A stretch of DNA of 34,486 nucleotides from Candidatus Solibacter sp. (GTDB lineage Bacteria; Acidobacteriota; Terriglobia; Bryobacterales; Bryobacteraceae). The stretch covers positions 1 through 34,486 of the forward strand of contig JANYAH010000186.1 of NCBI GenBank assembly GCA_025361425.1, in the 5' to 3' direction. The position numbers and the translations under genes were made by a program. Of the stretch, positions 7,816 through 34,175 are shown in pieces. The notes beneath the pieces are model-generated. The model made no database searches. It was not told the DNA's origin and saw only the letters and a list, made by a program, of their open reading frames with translations. Within the stretch, counting starts at the first letter, position 1. Every line of letters begins with the position of its first letter.

Positions 7816-8009
7816 ACCTCCTTTGGTATGGCGAGTAGTTTGGGTGCCGAGCGCACGAAGCGCTCCGGGTGAGCCTGGTAGGCGGCGTTGAGCACGACCT
7901 GCCGTCGCTCGATGACCGCCGGTGCCTGGGCAAGAAGTACCATCGGGCCACGTGCCCCTGTCTGTCCGAAGCGTCGCTGATAGCACCAGCCACCGGCCGA
8001 CGTCTCCAA
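7816..8009 (-). pseudogene. IS3-family orfB C-terminal fragment, inverted
   Basis: On the minus strand, reading from 8009 to about 7816, the frame contains PAVIERRQVVLNAAYQAHPERFVR and then PKLLAIPKEV, which match the extreme C-terminus of IS3-type orfB (consensus AHPERFVxGxPxPPxLPxxVWINPP, from memory). Upstream, RWCYQRRF-like residues may be a decayed version of the RWYNxEHRHS motif. It faces the + strand orfA/orfB-N fragment end to end, so the element has been inverted internally or is a hybrid of two copies. Confidence 0.6.
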
Positions 8010-8081
8010 AAGTCACATCGACGAGTCCCGGTACTATTTCAAAGGAAAACTTCTCAGGAGAGACAATCTGGAAGAAAAGTT

Positions 8082-8111
8082 CTAGTCCGGCCGCCGTACG
8101 GGAAGGACTAG
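8082..8111. repeat. Inverted repeat CTAGTCC...GGACTAG upstream of pilZ
   Basis: CTAGTCC (8082-8088) and GGACTAG (8105-8111) are perfect inverted repeats with a 16-nt spacer. The right arm overlaps the candidate sigma-28 -35 region of the pilZ promoter, so it could be an operator. No T tract follows, so a terminator is unlikely. The rest of 8010-8149 holds no coding signal I can support. Confidence 0.4.
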
Positions 8112-8136
8112 CGGAATTTGCTTCCTCAGCCGATTA
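8107..8136 (+). promoter_or_regulatory. Candidate sigma-28 (FliA) promoter of pilZ
   Basis: ACTAGCGG (8107-8114), 14 bp, then GCCGATTA (8129-8136). The -10 matches the sigma-28 GCCGATAA consensus at 7 of 8 positions; the -35 shares only the TAG core with the other sites in this window. The start codon is 14 nt after the -10, which leaves a leader of only a few nucleotides. Confidence 0.35.
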
Positions 8137-8149
8137 TCAGATAGCGCTT

Positions 8150-8524
8150 ATGTCAGTGGACTGCATTGGTGGTGACCGCAGGGCGGAGAGACGGTACGAG
8201 TTCCGAATGGATGTCCACTTTAGTTATTCGGAACGGAGTGTCACCTACTTCGGCGCGGGAGTGACCATCGACCTGGGCAGAGGAGGCGTTCGTTTCCAGA
8301 CCGATACACCGCCTCCGGTCGGAACAGAAGCCGAACTGCGGATCGCCTGGCCCTTCTTGTTACAGGGTTCCTGCGCCCTGGAACTCGTGATTTGGGGATC
8401 TATCCTCGGAACCCGTCAGGGCGGCACAGTTCTGAGAATGAGTGGTTACGAATTTCGCACCCGGGGGGAGAGGTCGTTCTCAGAGTCGCAGGAGCGCCCC
8501 GAAATCTGTAGCATCACAGCGTAG
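8150..8524 (+). CDS. PilZ domain protein
   Basis: 124 aa from ATG 8150; the open frame extends upstream but only into IS debris. Residues 10-20 (RRAERRYEFRM) give the RxxxR c-di-GMP motif and residues 41-46 (DLGRGG) give the second motif [D/N]xSxxG, but with Gly in place of Ser. The remainder (VGTEAELRIAWPF, ELVIWGSILGT) fits the PilZ barrel. Such proteins bind c-di-GMP and often brake flagellar motility, which fits the position at the edge of the flagellar cluster. The changed Ser means ligand binding is not assured. The last 79 nt overlap, tail to tail, with the gene on the minus strand. Confidence 0.82.
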   Translation: MSVDCIGGDRRAERRYEFRMDVHFSYSERSVTYFGAGVTIDLGRGGVRFQTDTPPPVGTEAELRIAWPFLLQGSCALELVIWGSILGTRQGGTVLRMSGYEFRTRGERSFSESQERPEICSITA

Positions 8525-9576: not shown

Positions 9577-9606
9577 CCTCGAATCGCAGGCCGTTCCCGC
9601 CGATAT
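9577..9606 (+). promoter_or_regulatory. Candidate sigma-28 promoter of flaG-fliS
   Basis: CCTCGAAT (9577-9584), 14 bp, then GCCGATAT (9599-9606), a perfect Bacillus-type sigma-D -10. The start codon of flaG is 60 nt downstream. A CACTGGCAGTG palindrome (9641-9651) lies in the leader. Confidence 0.5.
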
Positions 9607-9665: not shown

Positions 9666-9968
9666 ATGGAAATCAACCAATTGTCCGGAATCAGCCTGAC
9701 GGCGCCAGTCGATTTGACGCCCAAGTCGCAGCATGACGCCGCGACCCGCCAGATCGTCTCGGCCGTCCAGGCACTCAACAAATCAGAACTGTTTGGCGAG
9801 AACCGCCAACTGCAGTTTTCGCGGGACAACGATACGCACCGTGTGATTATCAAAATCACGAACCCAAAAACCGGTGAGATCATCGACCAGATTCCCTCCG
9901 AGACCGTCCTGCGGATGCTCGCGGATCTGCCGGTGCGCCAACGCAATAATGGGGCTTCCACACTGTGA
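9666..9968 (+). CDS. flaG: FlaG-like protein
   Basis: 100 aa from ATG 9666 (AAGGACTAAGACC upstream gives the ribosome site). The C-terminal half, LQFSRDNDTHRVIIKITNPKTGEIIDQIPSETVLRML, is the conserved FlaG block (KVxDxxTGEVIRQIPxEExL). The N-terminal half is unconserved, as usual. FlaG affects filament length or flagellin secretion in Pseudomonas and Campylobacter; its exact job is open. It is the first gene of a two-gene unit: the TGA overlaps the ATG of fliS by one base, so translation is coupled. Confidence 0.85.
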   Translation: MEINQLSGISLTAPVDLTPKSQHDAATRQIVSAVQALNKSELFGENRQLQFSRDNDTHRVIIKITNPKTGEIIDQIPSETVLRMLADLPVRQRNNGASTL

Positions 9969-10441
9969 TGTGGAAAGAAGCGTATCTGGAAAGCCGCATC
10001 CTGTCGGCGGACCCGCTGGAACTGATCAGCCTCCTGTACCAGGGCGCACTCGATTCGGTGCATGACGCCCGCAAACACCTTTCGGAGGGAGACATTCCAG
10101 CGCGCACACAGGCCATTGCCAAAGTCACGGATATCCTGGCTGAGTTGGAAGGTTCGCTGAACCACCAAGCCGGGGGTTCCATCAGCAGAGGCCTGGCCGA
10201 TTTGTATCAGTACATGAGGCTGCGGCTGCTGGAGGCCAACATCCGGCGGGACGACGCGATGCTCGGCGAAGTCCAATCGCTGTTGGCCACGATGGCGGAA
10301 GGTTGGAGGGCAATACAGAAGGCTCCAGAGTCGAAAAACGAACCGGGAACCGAAGCCGCAGTGGGCCACCATGCTCCCGCAGCCTGGGAAGGAGATTTCG
10401 AAGGCGGCCGGGAATTCGCTGCGCATGGCTGGAACGCCTAG
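9968..10441 (+). CDS. fliS: Flagellin export chaperone FliS
   Basis: 157 aa from ATG 9968 (a GTG at 9965 is possible). WKEAYLESRILSADPLELISLLYQGALDSVHDARKHL, then TDILAELEGSLNHQAGGSISRGLADLYQYMRLRLLEAN, is the FliS helical bundle with the YxxxxVxTASPxEL-like start. FliS caps the C-terminus of flagellin in the cytosol before export. It is longer than the usual 120-135 residues because of an unconserved tail after about 120. Its TAG stop is inside a CTAG that also holds the stop of the flgJ-like gene on the other strand. Confidence 0.92.
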   Translation: MWKEAYLESRILSADPLELISLLYQGALDSVHDARKHLSEGDIPARTQAIAKVTDILAELEGSLNHQAGGSISRGLADLYQYMRLRLLEANIRRDDAMLGEVQSLLATMAEGWRAIQKAPESKNEPGTEAAVGHHAPAAWEGDFEGGREFAAHGWNA

Positions 10442-15134: not shown

Positions 15135-15164
15135 CCTAGAGAATCCCTGCAAAGCTGCCGATAT
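15135..15164 (+). promoter_or_regulatory. Candidate sigma-28 promoter facing fliK
   Basis: CCTAGAGA (15135-15142), 14 bp, then GCCGATAT (15157-15164), a full sigma-28 -10. A second CCCGATAT follows at 15166-15173 without a spaced -35. The resulting RNA would start near 15171 and read into fliK through the hairpin at 15262-15287. Confidence 0.5.
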
Positions 15165-24489: not shown

Positions 24490-25254
24490 ATGTCAATCGG
24501 TCAACTTGCGTATGGTCACCAGTACGACGAAGATGCAGCGCAGGGGCGCGAATTTCTCGTACTGCAGCATCTGTCGCAGGTGCGCACGATTGCGAGGCAA
24601 ATCCACAACCGCTTGCCGGATAGTGTGTGCCTGGACGACCTAGTCTCCGCTGGCGTCGTCGGCCTCCTCGCTGCCGTCGACAATTTCGATCCCTCCTACA
24701 ACGTCCAGCTGAACACCTACGCGGAGCGGCGCATCCGTGGCGCGATCATGGACAGTCTGCGCGATCTGGACTGGGCTCCTCGTGAGACCCGGAAACATTC
24801 CAAGATGATTGAGGATGCGATTCACCGGGCAAGGCAACGCTTTGGGCGAGAACCCTCGGATGACGAGATTGCCTCGGAACTGGGTGTCACACCCGATCAG
24901 CACCGTCAATGGCTCAATGACGCACAGGGCATCGACCTGCAGCGCCTTGAGTCCGGCGGCGACGGGCAGCCCGATTTGCTGCAATTCCTCTCAGACGAGG
25001 GCGAGAGCCTACCGTCGCGCCTGTTTGAGCGTGCGGAACTCGAGCGCGTCCTGACCCTCGCGATCGAGCGGATACCGAAAATCGAACGGACGGTCCTGCA
25101 CTTGTACTATTTCGAAGAGCTCACTCTTCGAGAAATCGGGACCGTGATGGGTATGCACCTTTCCCGCATCGGGCAGTTGCGGGTCCAGGCCGTTCTGCGG
25201 CTTCGCAGCCACCTGGACAAGGTGTGGACCTCTGTGCCAAGGAGCAAGCATTGA
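24490..25254 (+). CDS. fliA: RNA polymerase sigma-28 factor FliA
   Basis: 254 aa. Sigma region 2: HLSQVRTIARQIHNRLPDSVCLDDLVSAGVVGLLAAVDNFDP and LNTYAERRIRGAIMDSLRDLDWAPR (2.4); region 3: IEDAIHRARQRFGREPSDDEIASELGVT; region 4: RIPKIERTVLHLYYFEELTLREIGTVMGMHLSRIGQLRVQAVLRLRSHL. Length fits FliA (about 240). It transcribes late flagellar genes until held by FlgM, encoded at 27993. The TGA overlaps the TTG of the next gene. Confidence 0.96.
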   Translation: MSIGQLAYGHQYDEDAAQGREFLVLQHLSQVRTIARQIHNRLPDSVCLDDLVSAGVVGLLAAVDNFDPSYNVQLNTYAERRIRGAIMDSLRDLDWAPRETRKHSKMIEDAIHRARQRFGREPSDDEIASELGVTPDQHRQWLNDAQGIDLQRLESGGDGQPDLLQFLSDEGESLPSRLFERAELERVLTLAIERIPKIERTVLHLYYFEELTLREIGTVMGMHLSRIGQLRVQAVLRLRSHLDKVWTSVPRSKH

Positions 25255-27992: not shown

Positions 27993-28316
27993 ATGGATTT
28001 GAAGATTAACGGTCAAATTCCGAATAACGCCTCCAGCGCACTGGCCGGACGACCCGAAGGCATGGGCGTTCCTGTAGGTCCTGGGGGCAAGCACCGGCTG
28101 CAATCTGTGGGCGCGATTGGTGCGGACCGCATCGAGATCTCTTCTCTGACCGAACGAATCGCAGACGGACTGAGCACGGACTCGGCGCAGCGGTCAGACC
28201 GCGTGCGTCACTTCGCGGCCCTGTATTCCAGTGGCCGATATTCGCCGGCTCCGAGCGACGCGAGCCGGGCACTCATTACGCACGCCCTCGCTAACAAAAC
28301 CTCGGTAAGCGCATGA
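27993..28316 (+). CDS. flgM: Anti-sigma-28 factor FlgM
   Basis: 107 aa from ATG 27993. MDLKINGQIPN begins as FlgM usually does, and the sigma-binding C-terminal half is IEISSLTERIADGLSTDSAQRSDRVRHFAALYSSGRYSPAPSDASRALITHAL. It holds FliA inactive until exported through the finished hook. No clear ribosome site precedes it. Stop and next start overlap (ATGA). The 170 nt upstream, shared with the activator gene, is unusually AT-rich and holds only imperfect promoter matches. Confidence 0.9.
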   Translation: MDLKINGQIPNNASSALAGRPEGMGVPVGPGGKHRLQSVGAIGADRIEISSLTERIADGLSTDSAQRSDRVRHFAALYSSGRYSPAPSDASRALITHALANKTSVSA

Positions 28317-28687
28317 GCACCGCGGCCGAAATTCAACAGGCGATCGGGGCAGCCAGGTCCCAGGTTCGTGCTGCCGGGGATGCGTGGGCTGTCGGCAACT
28401 TCCAACGAATCGTGGAAGCAGTCACATTCCTGCCGTCGGCGGTCGAAATCGTCCGCCGGGCCAATGAACTATTGCTGTCCGCCTCTCCGACTGTCCGGCG
28501 GCAAGCCCAGACGCACGCCGCTGCGCTCGCAGGCGAGGTGACACAACTCGCCCGGTTGCTCGATAGCTCGGCAGCCTTTTATCGCGGCATCGCTACTAGA
28601 GTTCAAGGCGCTGGAGCTGCTTACGACTCCTGCGGATTGGCCGCCGCCCCGCCCGAGTCTCCCAGATCGGCCGACATCGAGGTTTAG
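28313..28687 (+). CDS. FlgN-like helical protein (putative FlgK/FlgL chaperone)
   Basis: 124 aa, almost wholly helical and Ala-rich (EIQQAIGAARSQVRAAGDAWAVGNFQRIVEAVTF; ANELLLSASPTVRRQAQTHAAALAGEVTQLARLLDSSAAFYRGIA). No strong family motif, but size, helicity and position between flgM and flgK are those of FlgN, the export chaperone of the hook-filament junction proteins. Translationally coupled to flgM; flgK follows after 5 nt. Assigned mainly by context. Confidence 0.65.
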   Translation: MSTAAEIQQAIGAARSQVRAAGDAWAVGNFQRIVEAVTFLPSAVEIVRRANELLLSASPTVRRQAQTHAAALAGEVTQLARLLDSSAAFYRGIATRVQGAGAAYDSCGLAAAPPESPRSADIEV

Positions 28688-30129: not shown

Positions 30130-31050
30130 ATGCTTCTCCCGCTCAAAGGAACCACCGACAAATATCTGGCTGACCTGAGCCGCGTGCAGGCGACCATGGA
30201 TGTGGCGCAGCGGCAAGTGTCCTCCGGTCTGCGCGTGCAGCGTGCCTCCGATGACCCCGCGGCCGTGAATGAAATCCTACAGTTGCAGGCGGATATTGCC
30301 GCCAACCGGCAGACACAAGCGAATTTCGACCAGATAACCACCGAAATCGGTAGCGCCGATGGCGGTCTCCAGTCGGTCATCCAGCTGATGGACCGTGCCG
30401 TGGCCCTCGCCACTCAGGCGGGCGGCCCCGCGGCAACTGCGCAGCAACGCACGGCCATGGCGGAGGAAGTCAGCGGCTTGCAGCAGCAGATAGTAGGGAT
30501 TAGCCAGTTTACCGTGAACGGCCGTTATATCTTCAGCGGGGATCAGGACTCAAAGCCCGCGTATGTGCTGGACGCGGCACAACCGAACGGAGTCCGGCAG
30601 ATGGCGGCGGCCGCATCCACGCGCGTCATTCGCGACATCAATGGAACTTCGATTTCGGTGGCAAAGACAGCTACTGAGATCTTCGACGCGCGCAATCCGG
30701 ATGGAGCGCCGGCAGCCGGCAATGTGTTTGCCGCGCTAGGCAATCTCCTCACCGCACTGAAGAGCAATAACGACGCCGGGGTGCAATCGAGCGTGACCGC
30801 ACTCAAGAGCGCCGGCGACCACGTGAATCTGCAGTTGGAATTCTATGGGGAGACCTCCACACGGGTGATCCAGGCTCAGAATCTGGCCAAGAAATTCCTC
30901 GTGGACCAGAAGACGGACTTGAGTAACACCCGCGACGCGGATATAACCGCGGCCGCCATTCAACTGAGCCAGGCGCGAATGCAGCAGGAGGCATCGCTCA
31001 CGAGCCAAGCGAAAATCTCCAAGCTGAGCTTGTTCGACTATCTGGCTTGA
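30130..31050 (+). CDS. flgL: Hook-filament junction protein FlgL (HAP3)
   Basis: 306 aa. N-terminus YLADLSRVQATMDVAQRQVSSGLRVQRASDDPAAVNEILQLQADIAANRQTQANFDQI has the flagellin/FlgL D0-D1 pattern; ISQFTVNGRYIFSGDQDSKPA is the FlgL-specific FSGxxxxxxP element; C-terminus QARMQQEASLTSQAKISKLSLFDYLA is typical. It begins 12 nt after flgK. The TGA stop is in the inverted repeat at 31048-31076. Confidence 0.95.
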   Translation: MLLPLKGTTDKYLADLSRVQATMDVAQRQVSSGLRVQRASDDPAAVNEILQLQADIAANRQTQANFDQITTEIGSADGGLQSVIQLMDRAVALATQAGGPAATAQQRTAMAEEVSGLQQQIVGISQFTVNGRYIFSGDQDSKPAYVLDAAQPNGVRQMAAAASTRVIRDINGTSISVAKTATEIFDARNPDGAPAAGNVFAALGNLLTALKSNNDAGVQSSVTALKSAGDHVNLQLEFYGETSTRVIQAQNLAKKFLVDQKTDLSNTRDADITAAAIQLSQARMQQEASLTSQAKISKLSLFDYLA

Positions 31051-31076
31051 TCCGGGGGTAAGGGATTCCGGGATCA
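31048..31076. terminator. Inverted repeat between convergent stops (flgL and the 98-aa gene)
   Basis: TGATCC (31048-31053), which includes the flgL stop, pairs with GGATCA (31071-31076), which includes the stop of the minus gene. The loop is 17 nt and Gly-rich in G. No T tract; a weak bidirectional terminator at best. Confidence 0.3.
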
Positions 31077-31370
31077 GTCGAATTTGGATTTCGCGGCCAG
31101 GTGAGCCAGAAGCCTAACGCAGAGCCGGATCTGCGGGTTTGATTCGGCCGGCGCGGACAGATCCTCACAATCGATCATGCGCTTGGCGACCGCCGAAAGA
31201 AGTTCCAGGCGCTCATCCGGCCGGTCTCGGGTGACATCGGAGCAGCCAAGCTGGCAGCTCGATTCCAGCTCTTGACGGAGCCGTGAAGAGTCGCCGCAGA
31301 TCCAGGCGTGCAGAATAGCCTCCGCGTGCCGGGCGGACGCTGAGGACGGGCTAAGGGTTAGAACTTCCAT
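31074..31370 (-). CDS. 98-aa protein of unknown function in the flagellar cluster
   Basis: Read from ATG 31370 because the earlier ATG at 31385 lies inside a putative -10 element. The protein is helical and Ser/Leu-rich (ARHAEAILHAWICGDSSRLRQELESSCQLGCSDVTRDRPDERLELLSAVAKRMIDCEDL), with four Cys and no membrane segment. I do not recognise a family. It is the only gene on the minus strand between flgM and flagellin, transcribed divergently from flbD-motA-motB, with 128 nt between the two starts. A role as a flagellar regulator or chaperone is speculation. Confidence 0.55.
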   Translation of the reverse strand: MEVLTLSPSSASARHAEAILHAWICGDSSRLRQELESSCQLGCSDVTRDRPDERLELLSAVAKRMIDCEDLSAPAESNPQIRLCVRLLAHLAAKSKFD

Positions 31371-31381
31371 ACTGTAGCTTC

Positions 31382-31411
31382 TCATCGGCGGAATACATAC
31401 AAACTTCTAGT
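31382..31411 (-). promoter_or_regulatory. Candidate sigma-28 promoter of the 98-aa gene
   Basis: On the minus strand ACTAGAAG, 14 bp, GCCGATGA. Read the enterobacterial way it is AGAAGTTT-N11-GCCGATGA, 13 of 16 matches to TAAAGTTT-N11-GCCGATAA by eye. The -10 is 11 nt from the chosen ATG, which would give a very short leader. Confidence 0.5.
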
Positions 31412-31451
31412 ATCTTTAGTATTACTTTCCCCTCGCTTTTGCAGAAATTAA

Positions 31452-31480
31452 CTTAGAAATCTCAGGGCGATCTCCGATGT
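31452..31480 (+). promoter_or_regulatory. Candidate sigma-28 promoter of flbD-motA-motB
   Basis: CTTAGAAA (31452-31459), 13 bp, TCCGATGT (31473-31480). The -35 octamer and spacing are identical to the flagellin promoter at 34271. flbD starts 18 nt after the -10, with GAGG at 31487-31490. Confidence 0.5.
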
Positions 31481-31498: not shown

Positions 31499-31795
31499 AT
31501 GATCTACGTCACGCGACTCAATCACACACCGGTCGTGCTGAACTGCGATCTGATCGAACACATGGAAACCACGCCGGATACGGTGATCAGTCTGACAACT
31601 GGACAGAAATTCATGGTGCGTGAATCGCCCGAGGAAATCATCGACCGCGTCGTGACGTACCGCCGCCTGATCTTCCACGGACCGTCGCAAAGCAATTTCG
31701 CGGCGAAGGTGAAGGCGGAGATCCAGCGCCCGTCGGACGCCGCCGGCGAGGGCGATGCGGACCAACTCGAAGATGGGTCCCATGGCCGACGCTAA
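31499..31795 (+). CDS. flbD: FlbD/SwrD family flagellar protein
   Basis: 98 aa. The first 65 residues, MIYVTRLNHTPVVLNCDLIEHMETTPDTVISLTTGQKFMVRESPEEIIDRVVTYRR, are the whole FlbD/SwrD domain (not the Caulobacter regulator of the same name). In Bacillus SwrD raises stator power. The remaining residues are an unconserved charged tail. It directly precedes motA, overlapping it by 14 nt, which fits a stator-linked role. Confidence 0.9.
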   Translation: MIYVTRLNHTPVVLNCDLIEHMETTPDTVISLTTGQKFMVRESPEEIIDRVVTYRRLIFHGPSQSNFAAKVKAEIQRPSDAAGEGDADQLEDGSHGRR

Positions 31796-32633
31796 GCGCA
31801 AGAAGCCAGGTGGAAGGCCCGACTTGGCGAGCCTCGGTGGACTGGTAGTCGCGGTGGGCGGTATCATGACGGGCCTTATCCTGGAGGGCGGCAAGGTGGC
31901 GGACGTCAAGCAGTTCACCGCCGCGCTAATTGTGATGGGTGGCACCATCGGAGCCGTGATGGTATCCACACCGATAAGTGTACTGGTGCGCGCGGCGCGC
32001 CAACTCCTTCCGGTCTTCTTTGTTCACTCCGTCTCGCGCTCGGACATGATCGACGAGATCATCGAGTACGCCACACAGGCGCGAAAAAAGGGGATCGTTT
32101 CTCTGGAACAGCAGGCGACGACGATCCAGGATCCGTTCCTTCGGAAAGCGCTCACACTGGCCGTCGACGGCATAGAGATGAACCTGATCCGCTCCATTAT
32201 GGAACTGGAGATCACCATTCTCGAACAGGACGGTGATGCGGAAGCCAAGGTCTACGAGGCGGCAGGCGGCTACGCTCCCACCGTTGGGATTATCGGCGCC
32301 GTGCTGGGGCTGATTCAGGTGATGAAGAACCTGGCCAACATCGAGGAAGTGGGCCGCGGCATCGCGGTGGCATTCGTGGCCACCGTATATGGACTCGCCT
32401 GTGCCAACTTCCTTTTTCTTCCGGCAGCGGCCAAGCTGCGCGCCCGCCTTCAGGATGCGGTGCGCTTGCGGGAAATGATGCTGGAGGGGGTTCTGTCCAT
32501 CGTCGAAGGGCTCAACCCGAAGCTGATCCGCACCAAGCTCGGGGCGTACGAGCCGCCGCAGACCGGCAAAGTCAAGGCGAAAGCCGGAGCCAAGGCCGAA
32601 TCCACGGCAGAGCCGGTTTCGGCGGGAGTTTGA
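31782..32633 (+). CDS. motA: Flagellar motor stator protein MotA
   Basis: 283 aa from ATG 31782 (ATG 31773 is an alternative three codons earlier). Four membrane segments; LASLGGLVVAVGGIMTGLILEGG near the start, a cytosolic loop with FLRKALTLAVDGIEMNLIRSIMELEI, and AAGGYAPTVGIIGAVLGLIQVMKNL...GRGIAVAFVATVYGLACANFLFLPAAAKL near the end, all MotA signatures. With MotB it forms the ion channel that turns the motor. 1 nt separates it from motB. Confidence 0.95.
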   Translation: MADAKRKKPGGRPDLASLGGLVVAVGGIMTGLILEGGKVADVKQFTAALIVMGGTIGAVMVSTPISVLVRAARQLLPVFFVHSVSRSDMIDEIIEYATQARKKGIVSLEQQATTIQDPFLRKALTLAVDGIEMNLIRSIMELEITILEQDGDAEAKVYEAAGGYAPTVGIIGAVLGLIQVMKNLANIEEVGRGIAVAFVATVYGLACANFLFLPAAAKLRARLQDAVRLREMMLEGVLSIVEGLNPKLIRTKLGAYEPPQTGKVKAKAGAKAESTAEPVSAGV

Positions 32634-32634
32634 T

Positions 32635-33450
32635 ATGGCCCGGAAGGCACATCATCCGGCACACGCGAATCACGAGCGATGGCTGGTATCCTACGCCGAT
32701 TTGATGACGCTTATGTTCGCATTCTTTGTTGTCATGTACGCCAGTTCGCAGACCGACAAGGCGAAGGCCCAACAGGTGTCGGATTCCGTGAAGTCGGCGC
32801 TCGAGAAAGGCGGCGTAGTGGCAACCGTGCACGAGATTCTCGGAGGTACGGTCGACGACAGGGGCAAGGGGAACGCGCAGATGCGGGGCCCCGGCGGAGC
32901 ACAGGTCTTGGCAAAGGTCGAAAAACTTGTTCCGGTGGAGTTAATTCCCTCGATGAATTTTCTCACCAAAGCTCTGGAAGCCGAGATCAGGGACGGCAAG
33001 ATTGAAATTCGCTTGCAGCCACGCGGTCTCGTTGTCAGCCTCCGCCAGGCCACGTTTTTTCCCTCCGGTGAGGAGGCGATCGAACCGAAGACCTATCCCA
33101 GCGTGGAGAAGATCGCCGAGACCATCAAGAAACTACCCAATTCGGTTCGTCTGGAGGGGCATACGGACTCCGTACCCATCCACACCCCCCAGTTCCGCAG
33201 CAACTGGGAACTCTCAGCCGCCCGCGGCATCGCCATGCTGGAATTACTCAACACGCGCTTCGGGATTCCGCGGGAGCAACTGGCCATCGCCGGGTACGCT
33301 GATACCGCCCCGATAGACACTAACGGGACGGAGTTGGGACGCACGCACAACCGGCGCGTGGATATCGTCATTCTCAACCAACTGGGAGCGGTTGCGGAAC
33401 CAGAGTCCGCTGCCACCCCCACTCCTGCCGCAAAGGCTCGCAACCACTAA
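32635..33450 (+). CDS. motB: Flagellar motor stator protein MotB
   Basis: 271 aa. Single membrane helix with the ion-carrying Asp22 in SYADLMTLMFAFFVVMYASS (19-38), a plug/linker, and a peptidoglycan-binding OmpA-like domain (about 150-245) with LEGHTDSVPIHTPQFRSNWELSAARGIAMLELL and HNRRVDIVIL. It anchors the stator to the cell wall. The presence of Tyr-Ala-Asp fits either H+ or Na+ use; the sequence does not decide. Confidence 0.95.
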   Translation: MARKAHHPAHANHERWLVSYADLMTLMFAFFVVMYASSQTDKAKAQQVSDSVKSALEKGGVVATVHEILGGTVDDRGKGNAQMRGPGGAQVLAKVEKLVPVELIPSMNFLTKALEAEIRDGKIEIRLQPRGLVVSLRQATFFPSGEEAIEPKTYPSVEKIAETIKKLPNSVRLEGHTDSVPIHTPQFRSNWELSAARGIAMLELLNTRFGIPREQLAIAGYADTAPIDTNGTELGRTHNRRVDIVILNQLGAVAEPESAATPTPAAKARNH

Positions 33451-33489: not shown

Positions 33490-33957
33490 ATGCCAAGCTT
33501 CCCCACTACTTACTTTGGTGAACTGGAATACCACCCAGACTCGGTTTTTGAGTTTCCTTTCGGTATTCCCGGGTTCGACGAGCACACTCGCTTTCTTCTC
33601 GTCGAGCAGGTTCAGTCGCATCCGCTGGTATTTGTGCAAAGCCTGCTCAGCCCCGAGTTATGTTTCATCGCGGTGCCGGTGCTGGTGGTTGACCCCCAGT
33701 ATCGTTTAGAACTCAATGAAGAGGACCTGGCGTCTCTGCAACTTCCGGGCGCCGCCCAGCCGCGGGTCGGCGAGGATGTCGCCTGCCTTGCGCTGGTGAC
33801 GGTGACCGAGAACGTCGACCCGACCGCCAACCTGCGCTCTCCGCTCGTGCTCAATTTGAAGAAAAGAGTTGGTCTCCAGATTATCCATCAGGACACCCGC
33901 TACTCTTTCCGCCAACCTATTCAATCCCAAGAGGAGTTGACTCAATGCTCGTGCTGA
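33490..33957 (+). CDS. fliW: Flagellar assembly factor FliW
   Basis: 155 aa. FGELEYHPDSVFEFPFGIPGFDEHTRFLLVEQ near the start and VTVTENVDPTANLRSPLVLNLKKRVGLQIIHQDTRYSFRQPI near the end are the FliW signature. It binds free flagellin and, when released, antagonises CsrA. Weak ribosome site; two ATGs just upstream are in other frames. It overlaps csrA by 13 nt. Confidence 0.96.
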   Translation: MPSFPTTYFGELEYHPDSVFEFPFGIPGFDEHTRFLLVEQVQSHPLVFVQSLLSPELCFIAVPVLVVDPQYRLELNEEDLASLQLPGAAQPRVGEDVACLALVTVTENVDPTANLRSPLVLNLKKRVGLQIIHQDTRYSFRQPIQSQEELTQCSC

Positions 33958-34175
33958 GAAGGCGCGCCGGCGACAGCCTCTTGATTGGCGGCGAGATTGA
34001 GATTGAAATTCTCGAGATCACGCCAACCCGCGTGAAGCTCGGGATTCTCGCGCCGGACAGTGTCACCATCCTCCGCAAGGAAGTCTACCTCACACGCGAG
34101 CAGAACGTCACGGCCGCGAAGAAGGTCGACGCAGGGGCGGTCTCCTGGTTGACGGGCAAACTCGCCAAGCACTGA
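33945..34175 (+). CDS. csrA: Carbon storage regulator CsrA
   Basis: 76 aa. MLVLRRRAGDSLLIGGEIEIEILEITPTRVKLGILAPDSVTILRKEVY is CsrA throughout, with RNA-contact residues Leu4 and Arg44 in place; an extra 20-residue tail follows, as in FliW-regulated CsrA1-type proteins. It binds GGA motifs in mRNA leaders and blocks translation; the flagellin leader downstream has four GGA motifs. Confidence 0.97.
   Translation: MLVLRRRAGDSLLIGGEIEIEILEITPTRVKLGILAPDSVTILRKEVYLTREQNVTAAKKVDAGAVSWLTGKLAKH

Follow-up and report, generated by a model that had tools for sequence, protein, structure and literature searches.

A fast-diverging protein family with sigma-28-type promoters as a candidate flagellar accessory factor, coded divergently from flbD-motAB in Candidatus Solibacter

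The window, that is, the whole stretch of 34,486 nucleotides from Candidatus Solibacter sp. that was analysed, contains a short ORF on the minus strand (31370..31074, stop codon included), which encodes a protein of 98 amino acids from its second ATG and matches the family profile described below. The first ATG of the same frame would give 103 amino acids (31385..31074), but this start codon falls within a putative −10 promoter element, and the 98-aa start is therefore preferred. As the initial annotation had pointed out, the gene lies on the strand opposite to both of its flanking genes, which are read from the plus strand. Its convergent neighbour is flgL (30130..31050; TIGR02550 flagell_flgL, E 2.8e-40, over the cut-off) and its divergent neighbour is flbD (31499..31795; Pfam PF06289, E 4.2e-27). 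The name flbD is used here for PF06289, which we take to be the family of SwrD of Bacillus and not that of the Caulobacter response regulator FlbD. On the plus strand, flbD is followed by motA and a motB-type gene (31785..33450, with motB from 32635), both assigned by profile, the MotB-type match being below the curated cut-offs, and then by fliW and csrA (33490..34175; Pfam profile matches). The window further encodes a sigma-28-type factor, fliA (24490..25254, plus strand; TIGR02479 FliA_WhiG, E 5.1e-64, over the cut-off), a separate FliS (9965-10441) and a PilZ gene (7922-8524).

A sigma-28-like promoter, AGAAGTTT-N11-GCCGATGA, is directed toward the 98-aa gene at 31408..31382 on the minus strand, and its −10 element ends 11 nt ahead of the start codon. 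It is the sole site in the window that matches TAAAGTTT-N11-GCCGATAA, which we take to be the sigma-28 consensus, with three mismatches or fewer, and the gene does have the best match to the enterobacterial consensus, as first described. Taken alone, this match is modest and only suggestive, because 8 of 100 shuffled windows also contain at least one such site (mean 0.08 matches); what gives it weight is where it lies and that it recurs in relatives. A matrix trained on the flbD-directed sites of relatives ranks it as the best minus-strand site in the window (15.2, the next separate site reaching 14.7) and gives a plus-strand site at 15137-15164 a higher score (18.5). A weaker sigma-28-like site, TAGAAATC-N11-TCCGATGT, is directed toward flbD (31454..31480, plus strand; matrix score 11.1) and ends 18 nt ahead of that gene, the spread in relatives being 9-33 nt. 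The −10 elements of the two divergent sites are 83 bp apart, which bears out the earlier observation of two sigma-28-type promoters back to back within 100 bp. FliA is the factor that would read both. By comparison with relatives, it most likely transcribes the gene from the site at 31408..31382, which is back to back with that of flbD-motAB; by the usual distance between a −10 element and the transcript start the mRNA leader would be very short, about 5 nt. Elsewhere in the window, a further sigma-28-like site, TCGAATCG-N12-GCCGATAT (9579-9606, plus strand; score 13.8), is located shortly before fliS and an ORF that we take to be flaG-like.

The description of the protein as belonging to no recognised family holds for the collections searched. 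It matched 0 Pfam families and, in NCBIfam, one model only, with an E value of 0.067 that is far under the cut-off. The best hit among the sequences of solved structures was to unrelated proteins (E 0.26), and PHROGs gave only one-member matches (best E 0.018). Similarly, the 33 family members used for the profile matched 19 Pfam families, none of them convincing and FliS not among them. In the openly readable literature, partly on wider themes, no title or abstract opening among the matches listed describes the gene; the family is apparently undescribed, and absence from print is not claimed. Lists of flagellar genes derive mostly from a few model bacteria.

Relatives of the protein are difficult to detect by sequence alone. 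A single-sequence search of the named genomes returned no relative, and the same kind of search in 101 genomes returned the window's own genome and weak matches in 12 others. Two of these weak matches (G051 and G025) lie at the divergent place beside flbD, and a profile was built for this reason. In relatives, the ORFs read divergently from flbD have a common pattern, with an A..IL.A helix, ERxELL.A and then LL.HLA. The resulting profile of 33 rows detected members in 39 of the 101 relatives at E 0.01; at E 0.001, within the taxonomic family, 107 of 237 genomes had one, and these represent 53 of 76 genera. This taxonomic family is probably Bryobacteraceae, as judged from the labels of the 25 named loci with a member (E <1e-4), which read Bryobacterales, Bryobacteraceae or Bryobacter (13), Solibacteraceae or Sulfopaludibacter (2), Terriglobia (3), Acidobacteria or Acidobacteriia only (5) and Acidobacteriaceae (2). 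A phylum-wide profile search of 396 genomes gave two hits, one in the window's own genome and the other weak and partial, over 29 of 109 positions (E 5.7e-4), and distant or weak members may have been missed there because only the 12 best first-look candidates were scored per genome, compared with 21 in the 237-genome and 50 in the 101-genome search.

The profile also found a second member in the window genome, on contig C230 (G000:C230) beside a second flbD-motAB, which the single-sequence search of that genome had missed. With this copy and the matches in 107 of the 237 genomes, the gene is not the orphan it was taken for, and belongs to a fast-diverging family. Small proteins of this kind can be missed by single-sequence searches and found via position and promoter. 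The ratio dN/dS was 0.31-0.74 in seven of seven member pairs, six of which were drawn from four close sequences. A chance ORF without a product might be short, lack an annotation family and have no single-sequence relative in the named genomes, as is the case here; however, profile matches in 53 of 76 genera, dN/dS values below 1 in all seven pairs, a recurrent promoter and a confident AlphaFold model make this explanation extremely improbable. In the window genome (G000; contigs C349, C230, C207, C41, C115 and C143), FlbD, FlhA and FliS are each matched twice and Flagellin_N five times, with FlgL among the five, so that the genome probably has two flagellar gene sets.

The back-to-back pair of sigma-28-like sites is visible in many relatives. 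The matrix was trained on 50 of 65 flbD-directed sites, chosen for at least 10 matches to the consensus and a distance of 9-35 nt from flbD, and was then applied to the other strand. A gene-strand site above the 95% shuffle level was present in 26 of 34 member loci, the other eight staying at or below that level, as against 6 of 30 flbD loci taken to lack the gene, two of which (L053 and L087) have weak profile hits. The mean best score was 12.3 in the member loci (28 chosen by eye, the window included, and 6 added by profile), compared with 2.5 in dinucleotide shuffles and 3.7 in the 30 other loci. The corresponding Mann–Whitney P of 9e-8 overstates independence, as the genomes are related. 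L052, in which the arrangement is inverted, is in neither group. A second set comprised 46 regions upstream of members, some of which do not adjoin flbD, and 27 of the 46 were above their own shuffle level; this set overlaps the first in some genomes, has some entries from the same genome and one probable frame artefact (L243 at 4365), and its shuffles preserved base content only. As a control, one flagellin match of the window genome (L247) has TCATGTTT-N11-GCCGAAAA upstream, which scores 19.3, and an ORF that by eye resembles a second fliW (L246) has a site scoring 18.3; the flagellin behind the latter ORF and a second FlgL-type match (L248) each lack a comparable site of their own in the top three. 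A promoter at a fitting distance that is kept in relatives, as expected of a sigma-28 regulon member, is found in both sets and in one flagellin control.

Homologues in related flagellar clusters, whose absence would have refuted the earlier interpretation, are present at the same divergent place in many relatives, and both promoters recur with them. These observations support the earlier proposal that the gene is a candidate for an undescribed flagellar or motility factor. They also support a real, selected protein family that is tied to flagellar loci and to sigma-28-type promoters. From its sequence context, the family is very probably a lineage-specific, sigma-28-controlled flagellar accessory family.

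The genomic neighbourhoods of members are mostly flagellar. Of the 118 profile matches, at least 79 have flbD within 1.2 kb (at least 66 on the opposite strand and at least 13 on the same strand); these are lower bounds, since the flbD places used were those listed and 17 more. One further match shares its contig with a distant flbD, and for 38 the contig has no listed flbD. Nineteen of these 38 were fetched, together with one near-flbD case, and 15 of the 19 have flagellar genes beside them: flbD is nearby after all in 10, 3 follow flgL and 2 are located by motA and fliM. The members of L226, L227, L228 and L243 have no flagellar match nearby. Two of these loci raise the prospect of a sigma-28-controlled job outside the flagellum, for example in linking motility to cyclic-di-GMP or surface behaviour, as a PilZ-domain gene adjoins the member of L227 (496-900, minus strand) and another lies one gene away from that of L243 (6352-6693, minus strand). 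We consider such a job quite improbable, because only 4 of the 19 fetched members lack a flagellar neighbour and two of the four are on cut contigs, L228 being a 3-kb contig and the L227 member standing at a contig end. Among these four members, the upstream region of L243 is above the shuffle level (13.4) and those of L226 (4.6), L227 (3.5) and L228 (−0.1) are not; CGATA-type −10 elements precede the starts of the L226, L227 and L228 members.

The 165 loci compared contain 72 distinct members. The adjacent gene on the 5′ side is flbD on the opposite strand for 51 of these and flgL on the same strand for 9; on the 3′ side it is a convergent fliM for 15, with 3 more showing a FliN/M-type match. 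The fliM of L089 was confirmed. Most of these loci were fetched via flbD or motA, which biases the neighbour counts. Because members so often stand next to flbD-motAB and fliM, a motor role stays in consideration. The protein would then be a cytoplasmic motor accessory, made together with FlbD, MotA and MotB, that tunes stator recruitment or the FliM switch. Apart from the two kinds of neighbour, this main rival draws on the second copy in the window genome, which adjoins the second flbD-motAB, and on the presumed membership of SwrD in PF06289. The gene swrD is said to enhance flagellar motor power (PMC9195833). The motor role is nevertheless unlikely in our assessment, as the neighbour counts carry the bias described and the gene occurs in seven genomes of one genus in which FlbD was not found, two of them having it in a filament operon. 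As for the interval between flgL and flbD, fliM and the new gene occur there as a pair in both orientations and remain mutually convergent (L052, L236, L237 and L244 compared with L079, L089 and L105).

Co-occurrence with flagellar genes was assessed in the 237 genomes. Members were detected in 99 of 177 FlbD-positive and 8 of 60 FlbD-negative genomes. The eight comprise G666 and seven genomes of a single genus (g51; completeness 55-95%), including those of L230 and L231, and the presence of members in these seven without FlbD found argues against a strict FlbD partner. FlbD, which is coded with motAB, has the intergenic promoter region in common with the new gene; the two are distinct proteins, and the new gene is found in all eight of these genomes. 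Of the 21 genomes with at least two FlbD, 7 also have at least two members, as against 1 of the 156 genomes with a single FlbD. With respect to FlhA, members were detected in 103 of 210 positive genomes and in 4 of 27 negative ones, where the 4 were read by eye among the negatives listed and 7 of the 27 fall outside that list. No member was detected in the other 107 FlhA-positive genomes, which indicates that the gene is not needed for flagella in general. Because the genomes are related and many are incomplete, P values for these comparisons look stronger than the evidence is. Present in roughly half of the FlhA-positive genomes of a single bacterial family, tied to flagellar genes by place and late-type promoter, and absent from Pfam and NCBIfam as searched, the protein family offers a testable candidate for a flagellar part or helper.

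The structure of the 98-aa protein was predicted with AlphaFold from its sequence and 22 relatives. The model has helices at 11-25, 28-43, 53-67 and 79-97 (mean pLDDT 86.4, pTM 0.77), and the predicted fold is a small helical bundle. The sequence gives no sign that the protein is other than cytoplasmic. Being small and helical, and having a late-type promoter of its own, the protein could also be a late regulator or checkpoint, for example one that acts in feedback on sigma-28, FlgM or the FliW–CsrA pair. Small regulators of such a kind diverge fast, and the gene is in the same locus as fliW-csrA in the window and in L046, L070, L102 and L103. Many member loci have no fliW-csrA match, however, and the 33 members have no match to FlgM or CsrA in Pfam, so that a regulatory role appears improbable.

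In the Foldseek search with the window model, FliS or flagellar chaperone entries took ranks 1-4 (E 0.33-0.99). On the Z scale, the FliS entries (5.9-6.4) do no better than designed and unrelated bundles, of which the best reaches 7.4. The model of a second member, from L156, has helices at 4-21 and 24-35 and a long one at 43-89, in which helices 3 and 4 are merged (pLDDT 89.4, pTM 0.69). Foldseek found nothing better than E 2.5 for it, with no FliS among the 50 best rows, and by Z score a designed repeat, 14-3-3 proteins and MIT domains come first. None of the structure matches listed for this model is a flagellar chaperone, though one may lie beyond those listed. The predicted likeness to the FliS fold is thus a hint and is not significant.

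Comparison with the known export chaperones shows where the family would differ. FlgN and FliT are small helical late proteins that are coded beside flgK-flgL and fliD, respectively. In Salmonella, FlgN, FliS and FliT are reported to serve FlgK/FlgL, FliC and FliD, respectively (PMC8527033). The new family resembles FliS (PF02561) in being a small helical bundle in a late flagellar setting, in having FliS entries near the top of the Foldseek results for the window model, and in its place directly before flagellin in two loci (L230 and L231). In contrast to these likenesses, the fold similarity falls short of significance, no FliS profile match was obtained, and hhalign gave probabilities of 0.1 and 0.8 percent against the FliS set. 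Similarly, no match was found to the FlgN profile (PF05130) or the positional FlgN set, nor to the FliT profile (PF05400) or the set of small ORFs in the FliT position, and other small ORFs fill both positions in the loci examined. Homology to FliS, FlgN or FliT thus received no link from the profile comparisons. A role of the gene as a replacement for FliS was ruled out, since a separate FliS is encoded in the window and in 203 of the 237 genomes, including G517 and G524, which have filament-operon copies of the new gene.

In L230 and L231, the genes follow in the order flgN position, flgK, flgL, member, flagellin and fliD, after which a small ORF takes the fliT position. The flagellin and FliD of L231 were assigned by profile (best E 2.6e-42 and 1e-22, below curated cut-offs) and those of L230 from the sequence. 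Members directly behind flgL have promoter scores below the shuffle level (8.1 in L229, 4.2 in L230 and 0.6 in L231), and these low scores would fit read-through from the operon. An accessory chaperone is favoured by the size and fold of the protein, by the presence of its gene where FlbD was not found, and by the two loci in which this gene lies between flgL and flagellin. The overall best explanation, which we put forward tentatively, is a late flagellar family with an export role at the filament stage. The protein would act while the filament is built and could bind either an export substrate of that stage, namely FlgL or flagellin, or another chaperone. The step to an accessory export chaperone or co-chaperone, which would work alongside FliS and whichever proteins occupy the FlgN and FliT positions, is more doubtful. 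Rather unlikely, though conceivable, is the specific form in which Bryobacteraceae have a further lineage-specific class of export chaperone, unrelated in sequence to FliS, FlgN and FliT, with its own sigma-28 promoter and with a filament-stage substrate or another chaperone as its partner. HP1076 of Helicobacter, a FliS-binding protein, would be comparable as an extra lineage-specific protein tied to flagellar export, a likeness of idea only. Its knock-out is described as having no detrimental flagellation or motility phenotype (PMC7248283).

The window ORF at 28313-28687, directly before flgK and hence in the expected flgN position, matched 0 Pfam families, and the ORFs that precede flgK in relatives, which are flgN candidates, likewise differ in sequence. 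Further small ORFs are located near motB and fliD, in the FliT position (L098:5514-5801, minus; L077:7128-7421, minus; L231:8344-8637, plus). Pfam gave no convincing match for any of the three, nor did NCBIfam give one for the L231 ORF. The L098 and L077 ORFs have the pattern IRQA..SGEF..A..LWN in common.
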